A stretch of 64,000 bases of DNA from Dissulfurirhabdus thermomarina. GTDB lineage: Bacteria > Desulfobacterota > Dissulfuribacteria > Dissulfuribacterales > Dissulfurirhabdaceae. Positions 19,928-31,849 of the stretch are shown here, one piece after another (position 1 is the stretch's first letter; every line of letters starts with the position of its first letter). The DNA is taken from the NCBI RefSeq assembly GCF_012979235.1, contig NZ_JAATWC010000010.1, positions 1 through 64,000 on the forward strand, given 5' to 3'. Below the pieces are notes generated by a model. It saw only the letters and a list, made by a program, of their open reading frames with translations, did no database searches and was not told where the DNA came from. The position numbers were made by a program, and so were the translations under genes.

Positions 19928-19933
19928 ATGGCC

Positions 19934-20392
19934 ATGGATATTCAACGATTCCAGTTTACATGCACGTTCCGGGAAGCGTGCGCTTTGCCCCCTTTCAAGG
20001 GATCGGCCCTGAGAGGGCTTTTCGGGCGGGCGCTTAAACAGCTGACGTGTGCATTGCCTCGAAAGCCTTGTCCGGAATGCCCTTTGGCGTCGGCGTGTTG
20101 CTATGCTTTGGTCTTTGAAAACGTCTGTTCAGCGGGGTCTGGAGGGGAAGATCCAGGAGGGGCGCAGGGGACCTCACCCTATGTCTTGGAGCCCCCTCTA
20201 GATGGCCGGACGAGTTTTGCGGCTGGCGACATCTTTTCTTTCAGTTTGTTGATTTTTGGGCCTGCACTTCGGTTTCGTCCACATATCGTCTTTTCTGTGA
20301 TGCGTATGGGAGAAATAGGCATTGGCCGGAGGGGTCACAAAGGCCGCTTTAGGGTCGATCGGGTAACCTCCGATGAGGGATTACGACTCTAG
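19934..20392 (+). pseudogene. cas6: Truncated Cas6-family CRISPR endoribonuclease
   Basis: The 152 codons correspond to the N-terminal half of a Cas6 protein. They begin FQFTCTFREACALPPFKGSA, continue with LRGLFGRALKQLTC and a CPECPLASAC cysteine knuckle, and carry the family segment YVLEPPLDGRTSFAAGDIFS. Cas6 cuts pre-crRNA within repeats and normally has about 250-300 residues with a C-terminal ferredoxin-like domain. Here the frame ends right after GIGRRGHKGRFRVDRV, and the last codons (SDEGLRL) are encoded by a half CRISPR repeat and the first spacer bases. The C-terminal RNA-binding half is missing. GGGGAGG precedes the ATG at 19934. No other cas genes lie nearby. Base composition is AT-richer than the neighbours. 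Confidence 0.75.
20376..20387 (+). repeat. Half CRISPR repeat fused to cas6
   Basis: AGGGATTACGAC equals the last 12 bases of the array repeat. It lies 38 bp before the first full repeat, exactly one spacer length, so it is the surviving 3' part of a repeat whose 5' part is replaced by cas6 coding sequence. Confidence 0.75.
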
Positions 20393-20425: not shown

Positions 20426-20892
20426 GAAGGAATTGACCTGATTACTGAAGGGATTACGACCTCCTTTCACGTATAGGTTCGCATACCTGTCACCGGTGAA
20501 GGAATTGACCTGATTACTGAAGGGATTACGACCAAAATCCTCGAACGGATTGAGCCTACTAGTTCTTACTGAAGGAATTGACCTGATTACTGAAGGGATT
20601 ACGACGCTCCTTTCTTGAGATATTGACGAACGAAACTCGCGGAAGGAATTGACCTGATTACTGAAGGGATTACGACTCATATACTCCGCCGACTCTCCCG
20701 TTTATTGCGACAAGAAGGAATTGACCTGATTACTGAAGGGATTACGACGTTGACGCGGCGATGATCTCTTGCCGCGTCTCTTTCGAAGGAATTGACCTGA
20801 TTACTGAAGGGATTACGACCCGTCGAGCAAGAAACCTAAACGACGAAGCAGCTTATAGAAGGAATTGACCTGATTACTGAAGGGATTACGAC
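20426..20892 (+). CRISPR. CRISPR array, seven identical 35-nt repeats
   Basis: Seven perfect 35-nt repeats start at 20426, 20498, 20571, 20642, 20714, 20785 and 20858. Each begins GAAGGAATTGACCTGATTAC and ends TGAAGGGATTACGAC. The six full spacers are 36-38 nt and all differ. A further 38-nt spacer (20388-20425) lies between the half repeat and the first full repeat. Within the repeat, GAAGG and GATTAC each occur twice, so the repeat itself looks like an internal duplication. No leader is obvious, and the expected leader side has been lost into cas6. No cas1/cas2 or interference genes are in the window. Confidence 0.97.
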
Positions 20893-21558
20893 AGGATAAG
20901 CCCGCCCCATGTCGTGAGCCACTCAAGAGGGGTATCGGGGGCATTTGGCGGTGAGGAGGAGCTTTTTCGGGGTTTCATGGCCACGAAAGGACAGGCCGCT
21001 CCGTGGGGGATGAGGATTTTGTGGCCCGTCTTGAAAACCTAACCGGTCGGGTTTGAGACGCCGGAAGCCAGGGCGTCAGAAGAAGAGCAATAGGCAAGGT
21101 GTCCCAGGAATTTCGAGGCCGGCGAGGCAGCCATCGGTGAAGAGGAGCAGGAAGAGCCGCTCGGCTGCGGCGCGCCGGTGGTGCAGCAGCAAGACGCCGC
21201 CGGAGGCGCCGAGCAGGAGGGCCAGGGCGATGGACAGCGATACGGGCATGACACGCTCCCTCCGCGACGAGGACGGGCCCACGGCGTGGCTCGGCGTTGT
21301 GCAGGCCGGGGATCGAAGTACATCTTCGGCCTGTCTGCGCCGGCGGCCCGTGGGGGAAAGACGGCGGCGGCACGGACCGGCCAGCGTTCGACGAAGACGT
21401 GCACGCCGCGACGGGCCGCACCTCCCCGCCTGCGCGGACTAGGCGCCTCCCTGGCGCCCGGGCGGGGCGCCCCGGACACCCCAGAGGCAGGGCGGGAGCG
21501 GGCGCCACGGTGCACGGTGGGCGGCCGAGCCCCGCCCATCCCGTGCACACGTCGGGGG
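20893..21558. other. Region between CRISPR array and katG
   Basis: Composition returns to high GC after about 21100. Apart from one doubtful small membrane-protein frame on the minus strand (21076-21249), I see no gene. The right flank of the array (20893-20975) has no long AT-rich leader. Confidence 0.5.
21076..21249 (-). CDS. Possible small membrane protein
   Basis: The 57-residue frame starts MPVSLSIALALLLGASGGVL, giving one clear membrane helix, and ends with a second hydrophobic stretch (CLLLFF). A good GGAGGGAG ribosome binding site stands 8 bases before the ATG. It could be a real short protein or the surviving start of a longer gene. It is not recognised. Confidence 0.35.
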   Translation of the reverse strand: MPVSLSIALALLLGASGGVLLLHHRRAAAERLFLLLFTDGCLAGLEIPGTPCLLLFF

Positions 21559-23739
21559 CTATTTCAGGTCGAAGCGGTCCAGGTTCATGACCTTGTCCCA
21601 CGCGGCCACGAAGTCGTGGACCAGTTTTTCCCGGCCGTCTGCGGCACCGTAGACCTCGGCCACGGCCCGCAGCTCGTCGTGGTGGCCGAAGACCAGGTCC
21701 ACCCGGGTCGCCGTCCACTTCAACCCGCCCGTGTTCCTGTCGTAGCCGTTGTAGAGGTGGTGCCGGTCGTCGGCGGGTTTCCATTCCGTTCCCATGTCCA
21801 GGAGATTGACGAAGAAGTCGTTGGTGAGGGTGCCGGGTGCGGCGGTGAGGACCCCGTGTTTTTCGTAGTTGTACACGGCCCCCAGGACCCGCAGCCCGCC
21901 CACCAGGGCGGTCATCTCGGGCACGGTGAGGGTGAGGAGCTGGGCCTTGTCCACCAGGCAGTACTCCGGCGTGCCCAAGACATCGTCCTCGGCGACGGGG
22001 CCCCGATCCTGCCAGTAGTTGCGGAATCCGTCGGCCGAAGGCTCCATGGCCGAATAGAAGGCCTCGTCCGTCTGGTCCCGGCCCGCGTCCACCCTTCCCG
22101 GGGCGAAGGGCACGGTGATCTCAACCCCGGCCTTCCTGGCCGCAGCCTCCACAGCGGCGCACCCGCCCAGCACGATGAGGTCCGCCATGGAGACCCCCTT
22201 GCCCCCCCGCGCCCTTTCGTTGAACCTCTCCTGGATGCCCTCGTAGACGGAGAGCACCTTGGCCAGGTCCTGGGGGTGGTTGACCGCCCAGTCCTTCTGG
22301 GGGGCGAGGCGGAGACGGCCGCCGTTGGCCCCCCCGCGCCTGTCCGAATCCCTGTAGGTGGCGGCCGCGGACCAGGCCGTGTAGACGAGCCGGGCCACAT
22401 CCAGGCCCGAGGCCAGGATCTCCCTTTTCAGCGCCCGGATGTCGTCCTGATCGATCGGTTCGTGAACGCGCTCGGGCAGGGGATCCTGCCAGACGAAGAC
22501 CTCCTCGGGCACCTCGGGACCGAGGTAGCAGGAGCGGGGCCCGAGATCCCTGTGGATGAGCTTGAACCAGGCCTTTGCAAAGGCCGCCTCGAATTCCTCG
22601 GGGTTCTTCAGGAGCCGCCGGGCGATCTCGGAGTAGACCGGGTCGAACCGCAGGGCCAGGTCGGCCGTGAGCATCATGGGCGGGTGCTTCTTCTGCGGGT
22701 CGTGGGCGTCGGGAACGACGGCCTGCGCGTCCTTGGCCACCCACTGCTGCTTGCCCGCCGGGCTCTTGGTCAGTTCCCACTCGTTGTTGAAGAGCAGGTG
22801 GAGGTACTGGACGCCGAAACGCGTGGGGGTGGGCGACCAGGCAAGCTCGAACCCGGACGTGAAGGTGTCCGGCCCCTTGCCGGTCTTGTAGTCGAACTTC
22901 CAGCCCAGGCCCTGTTGTTCCGGGGGCGATGAGGCGGGGTCCGGCCCCAGGTGGATGTCCTCGGCCGCACCATGGCACTTGCCGAAGGCGTGCCCGCCGG
23001 CGATCAGGGCCACGGTCTCCTCGTCGTCCATGCCCATGCGCCCGAAGGCCACCCGGATCTCCTCGGCGGAGGCCACGGGGTCGGGATGGCCCCCGGGGCC
23101 CTCCGGGTTCACGTAGATCAGGCCCATCTCCGTGGCGGCGAAGGGCTTCTCCAGGCCCCCTCCCTTGAAGCGCTCCTTGCCGGTGAGCATCTCCTCTTCC
23201 GGGCCCCAGTCCGCCCCCTCGTCCGGTTCCCAGGCGTCCTCGCGCCCCAGGGCGAAGCCGATGACCTTGACGCCCATGGATTCCAGGGCCGCGTTGCCGG
23301 CGAGCACGATGAGGTCGGCCCAGGACAGCTTCCGGCCGTATTTCCGCTTCACGGGCCAGAGCAGACGGACGGCCTTGTCCAGGCTGATGTTGTCCGGCCA
23401 ATCGATGCGGGGGGCGAAGCGGATCCCGCCGCCCCTGGCCCCGCCCCTGCCGTCGTGGATCCGGTAGCTGCCCGCGCTGTGCCAGGCCAGGCGGATGAAG
23501 AGGGGCCCGTAGTGGCCGAAATCCGCCGGCCACCAGTCCTGGGACTGGGTCATGAGCTCCTGGAGGTCCTTCTTGACGGCTGCCAGGTCCAGTTGCCCGC
23601 ATTCCTTCCTGTAGTCATATTCCGGCCCGTAGGGGTTGGAATCCGGGCACTTCTGCCGCAGCACCTTGAGGTTCAACCTGTTTGGCCACCAGTCCGTGAT
23701 CCACCTCTTCTTCCTGACATTTTGGGTCTTCTCTTCCAT
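21559..23739 (-). CDS. katG: Catalase-peroxidase KatG
   Basis: The 726-residue heme enzyme breaks down hydrogen peroxide by catalase and peroxidase activity. The distal site [11 protein letters not shown] and proximal [11 protein letters not shown] are present. The Trp (in AWHS), Tyr (IYVNPEG) and Met (FGRMGM) of the KatG Met-Tyr-Trp crosslink are all conserved, so catalase activity is expected. The second, heme-free domain follows from about 420 ([20 protein letters not shown]). The proximal motif differs slightly from the usual GGHTFGKTHGA. GGAGGGAGCC precedes the ATG. The perR gene lies 149 bp upstream on the same strand. Confidence 0.97.
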
Positions 23740-23849
23740 GGCTCCCTCCTTGTTCCCCTCGGACCGAGGGCTCGTCCCGGGCCGCGCCCGCTTTCCCGGC
23801 CGTTACATCTTCGCCTGCACGGCCGCAAAGACCACCAACACCTCAAAAA

Positions 23850-23864
23850 GAAATAAATTCTCCA
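23850..23864. promoter_or_regulatory. Possible PerR operator before katG
   Basis: On the minus strand TGGAGAAT is followed by TTATTTC, an imperfect AT-rich inverted repeat. It shares the half site TGGAGAAT with the sequence upstream of perR at 24389. It lies 111-125 bp before the katG start. Confidence 0.35.
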
Positions 23865-23888
23865 GATAATCGTTCTCGATCATAGGGC

Positions 23889-24347
23889 TCAAGGCAGCAC
23901 TGACTTCCGGTTTTTCTCTTGGCATTCCGGGCAGATGCCGAAGAAGTCCACGCGGTGGTTGACGATCCTGAACCCGGTCTTCGCGCTCACCTCCCGGCTG
24001 AGCCCTTCGAAGCCTGCCAGGTCCAGGTCCATGATCTTCCGGCACCGGATGCAGACCACGTGGGGGTGCGGATAGGGTCTGTTCCCGTCATAGCGGTTTC
24101 CCCCCTCGGGGAACCCCAGTTCCAGCACCTCGCCCAGTTCCTTCAAAAGCGAGATCGTCTTGTAGATGGTGGCCAGGCTGGTGGTGGGGAAGTCCCTTTG
24201 CACCTGCCTGTAGATGGCCTCGACACCGGGGTGGCCTCGGCTCTCGGAGAGGATCTTGAGGACCGCCAGCCGCTGGGGCGTGATGCGGAACTTGCGCTCC
24301 CGCAACCGCGCGAGCATCGCTTCCAGTCTTGTCCGGGGGTCTCCCAA
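23889..24347 (-). CDS. perR: Fur-family peroxide-responsive repressor, PerR-like
   Basis: The 152-residue protein has an N-terminal winged helix (KFRITPQRLAVLKILSESRGHP; shown here in part as RITPQRLAVLKIL) with the recognition region TSLATIYKTISLLKELG. The metal-sensing C-terminal part has HPHVVCIRCRK and ICPEC, giving two CxxC pairs for structural zinc. Adjacent katG on the same strand supports a PerR rather than a Fur role. The start may be TTG 24347, preceded by GAGGAGGAGG at about 13 bases, or ATG 24317; family alignment fits either. A 15-bp imperfect palindrome 42 bp upstream may be an autoregulatory operator. Confidence 0.88.
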   Translation of the reverse strand: MGDPRTRLEAMLARLRERKFRITPQRLAVLKILSESRGHPGVEAIYRQVQRDFPTTSLATIYKTISLLKELGEVLELGFPEGGNRYDGNRPYPHPHVVCIRCRKIMDLDLAGFEGLSREVSAKTGFRIVNHRVDFFGICPECQEKNRKSVLP

Positions 24348-24403: not shown

Positions 24404-24940
24404 GTTAAAAACAAGTCAATAAAAAAATCGGGCGCCGCCCCGGGGAGGGGGATCGGGGTGGGTGCCTCCGAAATCCATGGGGTCCCGGGCGGTTCGAGGT
24501 GCCGCGGCACGGCCCGCCCGGACCTGCGACGCCCGGGAGCCCCCGATGCGGCGCTGACTGCTGCGTCCGAAATACCTGGGCGCCAAGGGGTTGGCGGCGC
24601 TCCGGCGGGAGGGACCCTCGGCCAGGGCGGCGCCGGCGGGGACGAGGCTGCCGCCGTCACCCGCAGCTGGAACGCTCCCGGGTGCTTGCCGATCCTGTGG
24701 CCGGGATCGCCGCCGTCCTGCCGGGGCGGCACGCCGGCGGGGTCGCCGAAGAGTGGATGACTTTTGATGTAAAAATATCAAGTTATACAATCCCGCCGCC
24801 GGCCGGCGAGCTCTCCCCGTTTTTTTTGTCCCCCTGCAAAATCTTCTTGCTTTCTCTGCGGGGGATACATATATGGGGGGAGAGGATCCCCTCCCCGTGG
24901 GGGGGCGAAGATCATCGTCCTGGAGAGGCCAGAAAAAACG
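24404..24940. other. Intergenic region before the kamA operon
   Basis: No gene is supported in these 537 bp. An AT-rich patch at 24760-24790 contains the inverted repeat TTGAT...ATCAA (24764-24781) and TTATACAAT, a likely promoter or operator. Further on, a T-run (24821-24828), GATACATATAT (about 24864) and a hairpin with GGGGAG/CTCCCC arms (24877-24896) lie just before kamA and could act on its mRNA. Confidence 0.45.
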
Positions 24941-26344
24941 ATGAAAGAGACCAGAAGCTTCACAGTCAAAGGCGCCAGACCGTGCCCCACCACGGAGGCA
25001 AGCGTCCTGGAAAGCGAGGACGACGAACCTCCGTCGACAGCCGCGGCAAAGTCCCCTTCGCCCACTTCCGCCTTCCGCCCGTTCAGGGCCATCCCCTCCG
25101 CCAACCGCACCTCCTCCCTCTCTCCCGCCGGTTTCTGCGCCAAATCCTGGGATTCCTGGCGGTGGCAGCTCAAGAGGCGGTTCCGCAACCTGACCGAGCT
25201 GGCCCGCGCATTTCCCGAGATCGATATCGTCCCGGAAATGGTGGAAGCGGCCCTCAAGTTCCCGCTGGCCATCACGCCGTACTATGCCTCATTGATCCGG
25301 GAATGGAACCCGTCCGACCCCGTGTACCGGATGGCCGTGCCCCAGCCCGAGGAGTTGTACGACCCTCCCTTTCTCCAGAACGACCCCCTGGAGGAAGACC
25401 ACGACATGGCGGTCCCGGGCCTGGTCCACCGCTATGCCGACCGGGCGCTCCTCCTGGCCACCTCGATGTGCGCCATGTATTGCCGCCACTGCACCCGCAA
25501 GCGGGTGGCGGGGCGGCGGGAATGGTCCCTCGCCCCGTCCCGGCTGAAGAGGATCGTCGACTATCTCCGCGCCAATCCCCAGATCCGTGACGTGATCATC
25601 TCCGGCGGCGACCCCCTGACCATGGCAACCGAACGGCTGGAAACCATCCTGGCGGCCGTCCGTTCGGTGGAGTCGGTGGAGATCATCCGGATCGGCAGCC
25701 GGACGCCGGTCACCCTCCCCATGCGGATCACCGACGAACTCACCGCCATGCTCCGCCGGTACCAGCCGATATGGCTGAACACCCATTTCAACCATCCCAA
25801 CGAGCTCACCACTACGGCGAGCCAGGCCCTGGCAAGGCTGGTGGACGCCGGCATCCAGGTGGGGAACCAGACCGTCCTCCTCAAGGGGGTGAACGACGAT
25901 CCGCAGGTGCTCGAGACCCTTTTCCGCGCCCTGGTCCGCAACCGGGTCCGGCCGTACTACCTTTTCCAGTGTGACCTGGTCCGGGGGGTGGAACACTTCC
26001 GCACCTCCATCAGCCAGGGTATCGCCATCATGGAATACCTGCGGGGGCGGCTGAGCGGCCTCGCCATCCCCACGTACGTGGTGGACGCCCCGGGGGGCGG
26101 CGGCAAGATCCCGGTCCTTCCCAACTACGTGGTCACCGTGAGCCCCACCCACACGGTGCTCAGGAACTTCGAGGGGATGCTGGTGAGCTACCCCGAGCCC
26201 CGGCAGGACAACGGAGGCCAAGGGCCTTGCGCCGGCACCGCCGCTGAGGCGCCGACGGTCTTCGATCTCGCCGCCGGCGGCTGCGGCACGATCCTGCCCG
26301 AGAGGTCGGCCAGGATCCTCCGGCGGGCCCGACGCCGTTCTTGA
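24941..26344 (+). CDS. kamA: Lysine 2,3-aminomutase family radical SAM enzyme
   Basis: The 467-residue enzyme is predicted to convert L-lysine to L-beta-lysine using S-adenosylmethionine, a 4Fe-4S cluster and PLP. The cluster motif is CAMYCRHC (Cys 177, 181, 184). GGDPL follows at about 222. The PLP lysine is K389 in APGGGGKIPVLPN. The acidic substrate contacts of true lysine aminomutases appear conserved (VDAGIQVGNQ and CDLVRG), unlike EpmB. The first 65 or so residues are low in complexity and may be poorly predicted; ATG 24941 has GGAG about 14 bases upstream. It is the first gene of a five-gene operon with acyltransferase, deacetylase and ATP-grasp domains. Confidence 0.9.
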   Translation: MKETRSFTVKGARPCPTTEASVLESEDDEPPSTAAAKSPSPTSAFRPFRAIPSANRTSSLSPAGFCAKSWDSWRWQLKRRFRNLTELARAFPEIDIVPEMVEAALKFPLAITPYYASLIREWNPSDPVYRMAVPQPEELYDPPFLQNDPLEEDHDMAVPGLVHRYADRALLLATSMCAMYCRHCTRKRVAGRREWSLAPSRLKRIVDYLRANPQIRDVIISGGDPLTMATERLETILAAVRSVESVEIIRIGSRTPVTLPMRITDELTAMLRRYQPIWLNTHFNHPNELTTTASQALARLVDAGIQVGNQTVLLKGVNDDPQVLETLFRALVRNRVRPYYLFQCDLVRGVEHFRTSISQGIAIMEYLRGRLSGLAIPTYVVDAPGGGGKIPVLPNYVVTVSPTHTVLRNFEGMLVSYPEPRQDNGGQGPCAGTAAEAPTVFDLAAGGCGTILPERSARILRRARRRS

Positions 26345-26356
26345 ACCGGGGGCGAT

Positions 26357-28078
26357 ATGATCCGTATCCGAAGGATTTTCAGTTCCTTTCGACAGGAAGG
26401 GACCATCGCCCAGGTGCAGGATCTCTTCCTGGCGAACTTCAGCGGTGCTGCCGAGGTGGCCGACCAGATCCCCCAGCGGCTGGACGACCCTCTGAGCGCG
26501 GGCTACCGCACCGTGCTGCTGGTGGCGGAACGCCCCACGGGCAAGGTGGTGGGGTTCGCGCTGCTGCTCCACTTCACCGACGCCCACTTCGCCTTCCTGG
26601 ACTTCATGGCCGTGGCGGGTGGGCTCCGCGGCGGCGGGGTCGGCGGCGCCCTTTACGAGGCGGTGCGGGAGTTCTGCCGAGGAGTGGGCTGTCACGGCCT
26701 CTACCTCGAGGCGCTCCCCGACAACCCCCTGCCCGGCATGGACGAAGCCACCCTTGCCGAAAACCGGAAACGGCTCCGCTTTTACGAACGGTATTCCGTG
26801 CTGCCGGTGGTGGGCACCGCCTACGAGACCCCCATCGGGGAAGGCCCGGCGCCCATGCTCCTTTTCGACGGGCTCGGCCGGACCTCACCCTTGCGGCGGA
26901 AGGAGGCGCAGGCCGCGGTACGGTTGATCCTCTCCCGCAAATACGCCGCCATCACCGACCGGAAGTACATCAGGCTGGTGGTGGAGTCCTTTACCGACGA
27001 CCCGGTCCGCCTGCGGCCGCCGCGGTACATCAAGCGCACCGCGCAGAAGGACGGGGTGGCCACCGGCCGTCTCGCCAAGCCCTTCGCCCTGTTCATCACC
27101 CGGGAGCACATCATCCACCATGTCCATGACACCGGCTACGTGGAACGACCGACCAGGGTCAACGCCCTGGCGGAGGCCGTCCAAGGCCTGGAACTCTTCC
27201 AGGAGCAGCCCATCCGCCATTACGGCGACCAGTTCATCACCGCGGTGCACGACGCCGAGTTCCTCGCCTATCTCAAGAAGGTGTGCAAGGGGCTGCCGCC
27301 GAACAAGGCGGTCTATCCGTACGTCTTCCCGGTGCGCCGCCCCGAGCGGAGGCCCAGGGAGCTCGCCGTCCGCGCCGGCTACTACTGCATCGACACCTTC
27401 ACCCCCCTCACCCGGAACGCCTTCGATGCCGCGCGCAAGGCGGTGGACGCCGCCTTGAGCGGCGCCGATGCCATCTTGAAAGGCGCGCCGGTGGCCTACG
27501 TGCTCTGCAGGCCGCCTGGGCACCACGCGGAACACAGGCTGTTCGGCGGGTTCTGTTACATGAACAACAGCGCCATCGCCGCCAACCGGCTGAGCGCCAT
27601 GGGGCGGACCGCCGTTCTCGACATCGACTTCCACCACGGCAACGGCACCCAGGATATCTTCTACCGCCGCGGCGACGTGCTCACCGTTTCCATCCACGGC
27701 CACCCCAACCACGCCTATCCCTACTTCAGCGGCTTTGCCGACGAAACCGGCGAGGGGGAAGGGAAGGGGGCCAACCTCAACCTGCCCTTGCCGGAGAATA
27801 CCGGCGGCCGCGACTATCTGGCGGCGCTGGATGAGGCCCTCCGGCGGATCGGCCGGTTCGCGCCGCAGTTCCTCGTGGTCAGCCTGGGGTTCGACACCAT
27901 GGCCGGCGACCCCACCGGGTCGTTCCGCCTTTCCGCCCGGGCTCTTGAGGAGATCGGGCGCAAGCTCGCCTCCCTCAGGCGCCCCCTCCTGCTGGTGCAG
28001 GAAGGAGGCTACAGCATCGCCAACCTCAAGCGGGGGGCCAAGGCGCTCTTCCGCGGCGTCGCCTCCCGCATCCGCTAA
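26357..28078 (+). CDS. GNAT acetyltransferase fused to HDAC-type acetylpolyamine amidohydrolase
   Basis: The 573-residue protein is a fusion. Residues about 1-170 form a GNAT N-acetyltransferase (FMAVAGGLRGGGVGGALYEA, the acetyl-CoA loop). Residues about 240-573 form a histone-deacetylase-fold amidohydrolase with RPPGHHAE (385), GFCYMNNSAIAA (398) and DIDFHHGNGTQ (422). Zinc ligands D424, H426 and D513 (GFDTMAGDP) and the catalytic Tyr552 (EGGY) are present, so the deacetylase should be active. The closest known activities remove acetyl groups from acetylated polyamines and lysine-like amines. Having acetylase and deacetylase in one chain, next to kamA, suggests reversible acetylation of a beta-lysine product. 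It starts 13 bp after kamA. Confidence 0.85.
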   Translation: MIRIRRIFSSFRQEGTIAQVQDLFLANFSGAAEVADQIPQRLDDPLSAGYRTVLLVAERPTGKVVGFALLLHFTDAHFAFLDFMAVAGGLRGGGVGGALYEAVREFCRGVGCHGLYLEALPDNPLPGMDEATLAENRKRLRFYERYSVLPVVGTAYETPIGEGPAPMLLFDGLGRTSPLRRKEAQAAVRLILSRKYAAITDRKYIRLVVESFTDDPVRLRPPRYIKRTAQKDGVATGRLAKPFALFITREHIIHHVHDTGYVERPTRVNALAEAVQGLELFQEQPIRHYGDQFITAVHDAEFLAYLKKVCKGLPPNKAVYPYVFPVRRPERRPRELAVRAGYYCIDTFTPLTRNAFDAARKAVDAALSGADAILKGAPVAYVLCRPPGHHAEHRLFGGFCYMNNSAIAANRLSAMGRTAVLDIDFHHGNGTQDIFYRRGDVLTVSIHGHPNHAYPYFSGFADETGEGEGKGANLNLPLPENTGGRDYLAALDEALRRIGRFAPQFLVVSLGFDTMAGDPTGSFRLSARALEEIGRKLASLRRPLLLVQEGGYSIANLKRGAKALFRGVASRIR

Positions 28079-28105
28079 CAAACCCTTTTCCCCATGGAGA
28101 CTCCT

Positions 28106-29098
28106 ATGAAACCCGTCATCGGTTTCGCCTACGACCTTCGCAGCGACGCCCTGGCCGAAGGGCTCAGCCCTGAAGAAGCGGCGGAATTCGACTCCGCCGA
28201 GACCATCGACGCCATCGCCGCAGCCCTTGCCGGAAACGGCTTCGACGTCGACCGCATCGGCAACGGCCGGGCCCTGTGCGCCCGGCTCGCCCAGGGCCAT
28301 CGCTGGGACCTGGTCTTCAACATCGCCGAGGGCCGCGGCGGCCGGTGCCGCGAGGCGCAGGTCCCGGCGCTGCTGGAGCTTTTCTCGATCCCCTACACCT
28401 TTTCCGATCCGCTCACCTGCGCGCTCACCCTGGACAAGGAGATGGCCAAGCAGGTGATCAGGGCGGCAGGGCTTCCGACCCCCGCCTCCCGGGTGATCGC
28501 CTCCCTGGACGACCTCGACCCTCTTTCCCTGGGCTACCCCCTTTTCGCCAAGCCCCTTGCGGAAGGGACCGGGAAGGGGATCGACGGAGCGAGCCGGGTG
28601 GACGACGGCCGGGCGCTGGCCGCCGTCTGCGGTCGGCTGCTCGAGACCTTCCGCCAGCCGGTGCTGGTGGAGGAATATCTCCCCGGCCGGGAGTTCACCA
28701 CCTCCATCCTCGGCACCGGCAGGGAGGCCAGGGTCCTGGGGACCCTGGAAGTCCGCCTCCGCCCGGACGCCCCCGACGGCGACTACTCCTTCAAGGTCAA
28801 GGAGGAATGCGAACAGTACGTGGATTACCTCCTGGTCACCCATGATCCGGTCCTCCCCGCCGTCGAGGAACTGGCGCTTGCGTCCTACCGCGCCCTGCAG
28901 TGCCGCGACGCCGGCCGGGTGGACATCCGCCTCGACGCGGACGGCAACCCCGCCTTTCTCGAGATCAACCCCCTGCCCGGACTCCACCCCACCCACTCGG
29001 ATCTCCCCATGACCGCCACCGCCTGCGGCATGGAATACGGGGAACTCATCGGCGCCATCGTCGCCTCGGCGCGGAAGAGGCTCGGCCATGGCGGCTGA
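28106..29098 (+). CDS. ATP-grasp ligase, D-alanine-D-alanine ligase-like
   Basis: The 330-residue protein has the ATP-grasp fold. It has an N-terminal DLVFNIAEGRGGRCREAQVP region, the small loop GTGKGIDGASRV, the ATP-binding segment VLVEEYLPGREFTTSI and the metal/phosphate site FLEINPLPGLHPTHS, as in D-Ala-D-Ala ligases. Such enzymes join a carboxylate to an amine through an acyl phosphate. No mur or van genes are nearby, so cell-wall dipeptide synthesis is unlikely. An amino-acid conjugate of beta-lysine is a more plausible product. The ATG at 28106 is chosen because GGAG lies 5 bases upstream; an ATG at 28094 has no site. The 3' end overlaps the next gene by 11 bp. Confidence 0.85.
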   Translation: MKPVIGFAYDLRSDALAEGLSPEEAAEFDSAETIDAIAAALAGNGFDVDRIGNGRALCARLAQGHRWDLVFNIAEGRGGRCREAQVPALLELFSIPYTFSDPLTCALTLDKEMAKQVIRAAGLPTPASRVIASLDDLDPLSLGYPLFAKPLAEGTGKGIDGASRVDDGRALAAVCGRLLETFRQPVLVEEYLPGREFTTSILGTGREARVLGTLEVRLRPDAPDGDYSFKVKEECEQYVDYLLVTHDPVLPAVEELALASYRALQCRDAGRVDIRLDADGNPAFLEINPLPGLHPTHSDLPMTATACGMEYGELIGAIVASARKRLGHGG

Positions 29099-30620
29099 AC
29101 CGCTTCCCGGGGTCATCATCCTCTACAACCGACCCGGCGAGAACGCCCCCGAAAGCGACCGGGGCGTCCTCGACGAGGTGGAGGCCGTGGCCAGGGCGCT
29201 CGCCGGGAAGGGGTTTCGCGTGCGCACGGCGCCAGCCGACCGCCTCGAGGAGGTGCTGCCGCTGCTCCAGGCCGGCCAGGAGCCGGTGGTCTTCAACCTG
29301 GTGGAATCCTTTCCCGGCCGGCCGGAGGACGCCGTCCACGTGCCCTCCATCTGCCGGGCCCTGGGACGCGGCTGCACCGGTTCGGAGACCGCCTGCCTCG
29401 CCCTGACCCTGGACAAGGCCTGGACCCGCGGCGCCCTGGCCGAGGCCGGCATCCCCGTCCCCCCCGGGGTGGTGGTCCCTCCCGGCACCCAGGCGGACGG
29501 TGCCAGGCTGCCCCGAGGTCCCTTGCTGGTCAAGCCGGTCCGCGCCGACGCCAGCGAAGGCATCCGGGCCGACGAGTCGGTGGTGGACGGGCCCGGCCGG
29601 AGGCTGGACGATGCCATCGGCGCCGTCCACGAGCGTTTCGGCCAACCGGCGCTGGTGGAGGCGTTGGTGGGCGACCGGGAGCTGAACGTCTCGGTGGTGG
29701 ACCTGGGCGGGGGGCCGGTGGTGCTGCCCCTGGCGGAGATCGACTTCTCCCGCCTTCCCGAGGGAACCCCGCGGGTGGTGGACTACAGCGCCAAGTGGGA
29801 AGAAGACTCGTTCGCCTTCCACAACACCCCGCGGATCCTCCCCGCGCCCCTGGACGAAGGGACGGCCGCCCTGGTGCGGCGGACCGCCCTGGCCGCCTTT
29901 CGGGCGACCGGCGCCCGGGGATACGCCCGGGTGGACATGCGGCTCGAGAGTGCGACCGGCGCCCTCTTCGTCCTCGAAGTGAACGCCAACCCGGACATCT
30001 CGCCCGAGGCGGGGTTCGCCGCCGCCCTGGAGGCGGGCGAGATCCCTTACGCCGATTTCGTCGCCGCCATGGTGCGTACCTCGATGAAGGCCGCTCCGGG
30101 AAGCCTCCCGGCAGGGCACTCCGCCGCGCTCCCCACGGCGCCCCTCAGCTTGCGCGAGGCGGTGAAGGGCGACCAGGAGGCGGTGATGGATATCCTGTAC
30201 GAAGCCGGGGTGTTCCGGCCGGAGGAGTGCCTGGTGGGGCGCGAGGTGTTCGAGGATGCGATCAGCCGCGGGGCCGCCTCCGGCTACCATTCCCTGGTGG
30301 CCGAGGACGGGATCGGTGTCTGCGGCTGGATCTGCCACGGTCCCACCCCCTGCACCGTGGGCACCCATGACGTCTACTGGCTGGTCACCGCCCGGCGCGC
30401 CCGGCGTCGCGGCGTGGCCTCGGCGCTCCTGGCGGAGGCGGAACGGCGGATCGCCGGCCAGGGAGGCCGGCTGGTGGTGGTGGAGACATCGAGCAGCCCG
30501 CCCTACGCCCCGGCGCGCGCCTTCTACCTGGCCCACGGATTCAGGGAGGAGGCGCTGGTCCGCGATTTCTATCTCGCCGGCGACCACCGGGTGATCCTGA
30601 CCAAACGGCTCTCCCCATGA
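29088..30620 (+). CDS. ATP-grasp ligase fused to a GNAT acetyltransferase
   Basis: The 510-residue fusion begins with a D-Ala-D-Ala-ligase-like ATP-grasp domain (about 1-335, with LLVKPVRADASEGIRADE, ALVEALVGDRELNVSV and FVLEVNANPDISPEAG). It ends with a GNAT domain (about 350-510, with VTARRARRRGVASALLAEAE). The order is the reverse of the GNAT-ATP-grasp fusion known from N-acetylglutaminylglutamine amide synthesis, but the logic is the same: ligate two amino acids and acetylate one end. Together with the preceding ATP-grasp enzyme it suggests two ligation steps or alternative partners. The start overlaps the upstream gene and the stop overlaps the permease gene by 4 bp. Confidence 0.85.
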   Translation: MAAEPLPGVIILYNRPGENAPESDRGVLDEVEAVARALAGKGFRVRTAPADRLEEVLPLLQAGQEPVVFNLVESFPGRPEDAVHVPSICRALGRGCTGSETACLALTLDKAWTRGALAEAGIPVPPGVVVPPGTQADGARLPRGPLLVKPVRADASEGIRADESVVDGPGRRLDDAIGAVHERFGQPALVEALVGDRELNVSVVDLGGGPVVLPLAEIDFSRLPEGTPRVVDYSAKWEEDSFAFHNTPRILPAPLDEGTAALVRRTALAAFRATGARGYARVDMRLESATGALFVLEVNANPDISPEAGFAAALEAGEIPYADFVAAMVRTSMKAAPGSLPAGHSAALPTAPLSLREAVKGDQEAVMDILYEAGVFRPEECLVGREVFEDAISRGAASGYHSLVAEDGIGVCGWICHGPTPCTVGTHDVYWLVTARRARRRGVASALLAEAERRIAGQGGRLVVVETSSSPPYAPARAFYLAHGFREEALVRDFYLAGDHRVILTKRLSP

Positions 30621-31849
30621 CCTCCGTGACCGGACCGCTGGAGGCCTGGGTCTTCGGCCTCGTCTACCTGGGGATGATGGCGGGCAGGTTCCCCAGGCTG
30701 CGGCTCGACCGCACCGGCATCGCCCTCCTGGGCGCCATCGTCCTGGTGGCCTCCGGCCGGACCACCCTCGGGCAGGCGGTCACGGCGGTGGACATCCCCA
30801 CCGTCTCCCTGCTGTTCGCCATGATGGTGGTTTCGGCCCAGCTCCGCCTGGGCGGCTTCTACGCCTTCTGCGCCCGGAAGACCGCGGAGCTCCGCCTCGC
30901 GCCGCCGTTGTGGCTCGCCGCGGTGATCTTCCTGGCCGGCATCCTTTCCGCGGTCTTCAGCAACGACATCATCTGCCTCGCCATGGCGCCGGTGCTCATC
31001 GACGGCTGCCGCAAGCAACGGCTCGACCCGCTTCCCTTCCTCCTCGCCCTGGCCTGCGCCGCCAACATCGGCTCCGCCGCCACCCTGATCGGCAACCCCC
31101 AGAACATGCTGATCGGCCAGAGCTTCCGGCTGGATTTCGTGGCCTTCGCCGAGGCGGCATCGCTGCCGGCCGCGGCCGGCCTTCTGATCACCTGGGGGGT
31201 GATCGTCTTCCAGTTCCGCGGCCGCTGGGAAGAGACGCCCGGAAAGAGCGTTCCGGAAACCGCGGCGGCGGGGATCCCGCCTCTCGACCTCGAGCAGACC
31301 TTCAAGGGGCTCCTGGTCGCCTCGGTCCTCTTCGCCCTCTTCCTCTTCTCCGGCATCCCCAGGGAGATCGCCGCCCTCGGCGGCGCCGGGGTGCTCCTCG
31401 CCAGCCGCAGGGTCTACTCGAGGGACATGCTCAACCTCGTCGATTGGCAGCTCCTGGTCCTGTTCATCGGCCTCTTCGTGGTGAACCACGCCTTCGAGCA
31501 GACCGGTCTTCCCGCCCGGGCGCTGGCAGGGCTCCAGGGGCTCGGCGCGGATCCCTCCCGGCCGGGGTGGCTCTTCGCGGTCACCGTCCTCTTGAGCAAC
31601 GCCGTCTCCAACGTCCCGGCGGTGATGCTCCTCATACCCGCGGCCACCGATCCGGCGGCGCCGCTGATCCTCGCCGTGGCCAGCACCCTGGCGGGCAACC
31701 TCCTGCTCGTGGGCAGCATCGCCAACATCATCGTCGCCGACGCGGCCGCGCGTTCCGGGGTCGCCTTCACCTACCGGAACCACGCCCGCACCGGCGTTCC
31801 GGTCACCCTCCTGACCCTGGCCGTGACGGCCTTGTTCCTGTCGGCGTGA
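30617..31849 (+). CDS. SLC13/ArsB-NhaD-superfamily membrane permease
   Basis: The 410-residue protein has about ten to twelve hydrophobic segments and the repeated inner motifs of the ion-transporter superfamily: FSNDIICLAMAPVL, NIGSAATLIGNPQNMLIG in the first half and LLSNAVSNVPAVMLL, NLLLVGSIANIIVAD in the second. Members move dicarboxylates, arsenite or sodium/protons. As the last gene of the kamA operon it may import or export the operon product or a counter-ion. The 4-bp overlap (ATGA) with the ATP-grasp-GNAT gene shows tight coupling. Substrate not assignable. Confidence 0.82.
   Translation: MTSVTGPLEAWVFGLVYLGMMAGRFPRLRLDRTGIALLGAIVLVASGRTTLGQAVTAVDIPTVSLLFAMMVVSAQLRLGGFYAFCARKTAELRLAPPLWLAAVIFLAGILSAVFSNDIICLAMAPVLIDGCRKQRLDPLPFLLALACAANIGSAATLIGNPQNMLIGQSFRLDFVAFAEAASLPAAAGLLITWGVIVFQFRGRWEETPGKSVPETAAAGIPPLDLEQTFKGLLVASVLFALFLFSGIPREIAALGGAGVLLASRRVYSRDMLNLVDWQLLVLFIGLFVVNHAFEQTGLPARALAGLQGLGADPSRPGWLFAVTVLLSNAVSNVPAVMLLIPAATDPAAPLILAVASTLAGNLLLVGSIANIIVADAAARSGVAFTYRNHARTGVPVTLLTLAVTALFLSA

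Follow-up and report, generated by a model that had tools for sequence, protein, structure and literature searches.

Comparison with the closest described systems

Two osmolyte pathways provide the nearest parallels to the locus described here. The N-epsilon-acetyl-beta-lysine pathway consists of a lysine 2,3-aminomutase (AblA/KamA) and a GNAT acetyltransferase (AblB) and occurs in methanogens and some bacteria. The N-acetylglutaminylglutamine amide (NAGGN) system contains a protein in which a GNAT is followed by an ATP-grasp domain, together with an asparagine-synthetase-like partner.

We analyzed a five-gene run in a 64,000-nucleotide stretch of DNA, the whole of which is called the window (Table 1). 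Like the N-epsilon-acetyl-beta-lysine pathway, it contains a radical-SAM lysine 2,3-aminomutase and a GNAT and likely yields an intracellular acetylated beta-lysine, but it also encodes two amide ligases of the ATP-grasp type and a Zn deacetylase. As in the NAGGN synthetase (TIGR03103), an acetyltransferase and an ATP-grasp peptide ligase are joined in one protein, but in the window the ATP-grasp precedes the GNAT, the ligase is of the D-Ala-D-Ala ligase (Ddl) type and the partner is KamA. The TIGR03103 match scored 21 bits against a cutoff of 569, which ruled out membership in the NAGGN system. The parts are known, and their combination resembles both osmolyte pathways but belongs to neither.

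The first-pass annotation of this DNA knew of no described pathway with this gene set, and we likewise found none in the open full-text literature that was searched. Since the 2009 amidoligase survey by Iyer, Aravind and colleagues, which may cover related gene neighbourhoods, lies outside the coverage of that literature, novelty is not proven. The gene set was absent from PMC2922099, PMC4001038, PMC5686539 and PMC11532494. The core of the operon probably makes a small molecule that contains acetylated beta-lysine and is apparently undescribed.

Organization of the operon

All five open reading frames were found on a single strand where the first-pass annotation had placed them, and Pfam and NCBIfam gave concordant domain calls for each. 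The intergenic spacings were +12, +15, -11 and -4 bp, with the next gene 180 bp beyond the permease; the annotated overlaps were thus recovered, but the gaps, put earlier at 12-27 bp, measured +12 and +15 bp. The five-gene run is a real operon and not a chance arrangement, since many genomes, from two phyla, share its core. A search for RNA control elements gave no Rfam match in the window.

Table 1. Features of the operon and its upstream region, in window coordinates.
Feature	Position	Strand	Basis
Sigma70-like promoter candidate, TTGATG-16-TACAAT, upstream of kamA	24764..24791	+	Consensus match only
kamA, KamA family radical SAM/PLP lysine 2,3-aminomutase, 467 aa	24941..26344	+	Pfam Radical_SAM + LAM_C, NCBIfam
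GNATa (residues ~1-190) + HDAC-family APAH-like Zn deacetylase (residues ~191-573)	26357..28078	+	Pfam Acetyltransf_1 + Hist_deacetyl
g1, ATP-grasp ligase, D-Ala-D-Ala ligase superfamily, loop NPLPGLHPTHSDLP	28094..29098	+	Pfam Dala_Dala_lig_C
g2-GNATb, ATP-grasp ligase (loop NANPDISPEAGFAAA) + C-terminal GNAT	29088..30620	+	Pfam Dala_Dala_lig_C + GNAT
CitMHS (citrate/ArsB-type) permease	30617..31849	+	Pfam CitMHS

Conservation of a four-gene core

The g2-GNATb protein was searched against 297 genomes of the window's phylum, and the neighbourhoods were then extracted. KamA was present in 58/73 and GNATb in 59/73 of the loci of this phylum with at least two ATP-grasps, and KamA was present in 14/18 loci of the phylum of 'Candidatus Kuenenia'; the loci were picked by a g2 or g1 match, and these counts express linkage given the ligases, not prevalence. 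The prevalence of g1 was 103/297 genomes and 73/198 genera in the window's phylum (E<=1e-40) and 45/246 genomes in the Kuenenia phylum. KamA, g1, g2 and a GNAT form a conserved four-gene core in scores of genomes of the two phyla. The co-conservation on which the earlier annotation depended was upheld for this core, but not as a strict five-gene order, as the GNATa-HDAC fusion is adjacent in only some of its carriers.

The full-length GNATa-HDAC fusion was detected in 27/297 genomes from 18 families, often away from the core. Within the window's phylum, 12 genomes, including that of the window and that of locus L132, carry it close to the core, as do two loci (L147 and L154) of the Kuenenia phylum. 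Twenty-six of the 27 fusion genomes carry g1, against 35% expected (103/297; Fisher p=2.1e-12, a value inflated by the relatedness of the genomes), and the remaining one (G072) has KamA beside g2-GNATb plus a partial g1. In three families (f46, f48 and f42), g1 and the fusion each occur in a single sampled genome, and it is the same one (G040, G193 and G275, respectively). This genome-wide co-occurrence, mostly without adjacency, places the fusion in the same pathway as g1, as the earlier annotation had claimed, and the within-family pattern argues for a functional link. Other gene fusions were g2-GNATb (the window and at least seven other loci), GNATa-HDAC-GNATb (three loci) and g1-g2; they connect ligases, acetyltransferases and deacetylase in one pathway.

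The permease is probably co-transcribed with the operon here, given its 4-bp overlap with g2. The window is the one place where it adjoins the core; the other loci examined in the two phyla lack it, and its earlier assignment to the system was dropped.

KamA and predicted beta-lysine formation

The window KamA aligns to the L-lysine 2,3-aminomutase structure PDB 2A5H with E=7e-128. It keeps C125/C129/C132 of the CxxxCxxC motif, which we take to be the cluster motif, R134, D293 and D330, presumably the lysine-binding residues, and K337, presumably the PLP lysine (2A5H numbering). All of these residues are kept in 80/80 complete cluster KamAs, the only departures being one truncated fragment and three module-less KamAs on plasmid records. 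The score was 311.6 bits against the NCBIfam KamA subfamily (cutoff 199.2) and 484.1 bits against the lysine-2,3-aminomutase equivalog, which is under its cutoff of 525.4, so lysine specificity is not certified; with the anchors intact, it is likely. The earlier view of KamA as the beta-lysine maker is supported by its substrate anchors. An N-terminal extension of ~68 aa precedes the conserved WDSWRWQ start, and similar extensions occur in relatives.

The same genome contains a second KamA-family gene (G000:C3:16363-17307; L125:6729-7907) with lysine-type residues. It scored under all equivalog cutoffs, and its identification as EpmB was ruled out.

ATP-grasp ligases g1 and g2

We compared the two ligases with DdlB. 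The fold is alike, with an AlphaFold model of g1 (pLDDT 91) giving Ddl structures as top fold matches at a TM of about 0.8, and the ATP/Mg residues equivalent to DdlB K215, R255, D257, E270 and N272 are kept in both proteins. The substrate pocket and acceptor loop, in contrast, are unlike those of DdlB. At the Tyr216 position g1 has Glu and g2 has Trp, the Ser281 loop is missing from g2, and the D-Ala pocket signature (Tyr216, Ser281/Leu282) was not found. The acceptor loop of g2 reads NxNPxxSxxAGF, and the loops of g1 differ between KamA-linked proteins (for example, NPLPGLHPTHSDLP) and proteins linked to the pyruvoyl arginine decarboxylase PdaD (for example, NPLPGILP with NSCFPKA).

It is extremely improbable that g1 and g2 are cell-wall enzymes of the D-Ala-D-Ala type whose linkage to KamA is incidental. 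Homology to Ddl at the family level would suit such a role, but both proteins score under all Ddl family cutoffs (NCBIfam), and a canonical Ddl (45% to E. coli DdlB) is encoded elsewhere in the genome at C3:205610. The altered pocket and this separate Ddl led us to reject a cell-wall role; g1 and g2 are distinct from the cell-wall Ddl of the genome, which agrees with the earlier annotation.

Acetyltransferases and the GNAT-deacetylase fusion

The HDAC part of the fusion is closest to acetylpolyamine amidohydrolases (APAHs). It shares with Mycoplana ramosa APAH (3Q9B) the Zn/His/Tyr catalytic set and the L2-loop framework, and the catalytic HH, the Zn D-H-D and the Tyr were invariant in 14/14 fusions. 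It differs from that enzyme in having an N-terminal GNAT and in the replacement of two residues, with Glu106 changed to P/S/A/T in 14/14 fusions and Glu117 to Phe. Glu106 of APAH is polyamine-selecting (PMC11532494), and its loss weakly suggests that the substrate of the HDAC part is not an ordinary acetylpolyamine; the argument is weak because another characterized APAH also has no Glu106, carrying His instead (PMC11532494). The predicted structure of the GNAT-HDAC protein was of moderate quality (pLDDT 80), and GNATa, with a best PDB match of E=0.002, showed no tie to a characterized acetyltransferase.

GNATb (window 30123-30620) has PDB 2R7H, a 'putative D-alanine N-acetyltransferase', as its closest solved relative (E=1.4e-32). 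2R7H is a stand-alone protein, whereas GNATb is fused to g2. We know of no established substrate for 2R7H, and its label was probably taken from its ligase neighbours.

Proposed product and role

We propose that the product of the operon is an N-acetylated amide conjugate of beta-lysine that stays inside the cell and is turned over by deacetylation; to us this seems as likely to be right as wrong. KamA would convert L-lysine to L-beta-lysine, as its strong homology and intact specificity residues suggest, and g1 and g2 would each form one ATP-driven amide bond, giving a di- or tripeptide-like conjugate of beta-lysine. GNATb, judging by its fusions and constant linkage, would acetylate an amino group of the product, and GNATa-HDAC may act at the beta-lysine side by adding an acetyl group, removing one or both; its simplest purpose would be to switch the compound between two forms or to recycle it. 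The least certain step is the last, in which the cell would retain the product as a metabolite of the stress or compatible-solute type. It is probably intracellular, since no conserved exporter, transporter or peptidase accompanied the core in the loci read. The presence of two acetyltransferases and one deacetylase exceeds the needs of a simple pathway and counts against the proposal. The first-pass annotation had also predicted an acetylated beta-lysine conjugate; the KamA anchors, the co-conservation, the non-Ddl ligases and the link to the fusion favor that prediction, but its permease and five-gene order did not hold.

We examined the association of g1 with osmolyte genes. Ectoine synthase (ectC) was found in 10 genomes, of which 8/10 carry g1 (p=0.004; p=2e-4 for KamA-type g1), a co-occurrence that is clumped, with 6/8 genomes coming from two families. 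BCCT transporters showed no association with g1 (7/22, p=0.69). An osmolyte role is therefore plausible with mixed support, given by ectC but not by BCCT.

The ectC association and the known pairing of KamA with a GNAT would also fit an N-epsilon-acetyl-beta-lysine osmolyte system of the AblA/AblB kind, in which the ligases and the deacetylase serve a separate purpose. This has a small chance of being correct, as neither GNAT-bearing protein gave an AblB-type NCBIfam match at E<=0.001, nearly all genomes with the fusion also have g1, GNATb is joined to g2 and not to KamA, and the BCCT association is lacking.

A variant with arginine decarboxylase

A sister variant was found in which PdaD lies ahead of g1-g2 in seven loci from five families. 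Agmatinase (SpeB) is upstream in five of them (L040, L043, L047, L048 and L072), and GNATb is present in six of the seven. In L048 (5484-10507) and L072 (6473-10756), agmatinase, PdaD, two ATP-grasps and GNATb form an operon-like run; the PdaD and agmatinase of L048 pass NCBIfam cutoffs, and this locus also holds a deoxyhypusine-synthase-like gene. The GNAT-HDAC fusion was found in 0/7 PdaD loci. The PdaD-linked g1 proteins are related, and the PdaD label requires only two changes on the g1 tree. As PdaD and agmatinase replace KamA in this variant, beta-lysine is not the sole possible precursor. Most simply, the trio of two ligases and a GNAT would be an interchangeable module that conjugates a diamine-bearing unit supplied by different routes.

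These loci bear on another explanation, in which g1-g2-GNATb is a general diamine-capping module that attaches a ligase-built short peptide to a diamine acceptor, namely beta-lysine with KamA and agmatine/putrescine with PdaD-SpeB. The product would then be a polyamine-like conjugate instead of an osmolyte, with the APAH-like deacetylase stripping the acetyl group from the diamine end. We regard this as unlikely, though with an appreciable chance. The seven loci with their related g1, the similarity of the HDAC part to APAHs and the deoxyhypusine-synthase-like gene of L048 agree with it, but the replacement of Glu106 and the lack of the fusion from PdaD loci do not, and PdaD-SpeB may be merely a neighbouring polyamine operon.

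We also tentatively suggest, though as less likely than not, a widespread undescribed class of metabolites. It would be built by a portable module of two ligases and an acetyltransferase with swappable diamines (beta-lysine from KamA, or putrescine/agmatine from PdaD-SpeB) and an acetyltransferase-deacetylase switch, in about one-third of the sampled genomes of one phylum and one-fifth of those of another. If the conjugate proposal holds, a common small molecule would be shared by numerous environmental bacteria in both phyla, an anammox-related genome among them, and could be an important solute or stress metabolite of anoxic habitats. The GNAT-HDAC fusion would then stand out as a bacterial HDAC whose small-molecule substrate can be predicted, which is rare. 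With only a few enzymes involved, apparently soluble ones that lend themselves to simple assays, the question can be tested directly.

Origin and surroundings of the locus

A maximum-likelihood tree of g1 groups the window sequence with six others, all from the Kuenenia phylum, in a clade supported at 97% SH-aLRT. One of them, L147, has the order KamA, GNAT-HDAC, g1 as in the window. Within the window's own order, g1 was found in 1/11 sampled relatives. The g1 locus was likely transferred between phyla, since it is nested in a Kuenenia-phylum clade and is rare in its own order. In the five clade relatives with upstream sequence, kamA is immediately preceded by a TetR-type gene, an assignment checked against NCBIfam for two of the five; the window has no such gene there.

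Transfer between phyla and a patchy distribution would suit a beta-lysine-containing low-molecular-weight cofactor, redox buffer or secondary (antibiotic-like) metabolite, and antibiotics such as streptothricin contain beta-lysine. On a Thioflavicoccus plasmid, KamA also lies near ATP-grasp and diaminopropionate genes, and on a Bradyrhizobium plasmid it lies near ATP-grasp and gamma-glutamyltransferase genes. Such a product is nonetheless improbable, as the core is conserved widely across many families and the loci read showed no carrier protein, NRPS or conserved exporter close to it.

On plasmids, the rhizobial ATP-grasp and KamA genes are mostly not side by side. The Bradyrhizobium barranii plasmid (L118:3066-7831) has a lysine 2,3-aminomutase, a gamma-glutamyltransferase, a 7TM protein and an ATP-grasp in a row. 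The Thioflavicoccus mobilis plasmid (L113:2467-7948) has a diaminobutyrate aminotransferase, SbnA, an ornithine-cyclodeaminase-like gene and an ATP-grasp, with KamA on the opposite strand; this run possibly makes a peptide of several diamino acids.

Upstream of the operon and divergent from it, a KatG catalase-peroxidase gene lies beside a PerR/Fur-type regulator (window 21559-24347). At window 20426-20902, a ~35-nt repeat, GAAGGAATTGACCTGATTACTGAAGGGATTACGAC, occurs seven times at a spacing of 71-73 bp in a CRISPR-like array, and a short open reading frame ahead of it (19928-20392) appears Cas6-like by eye.
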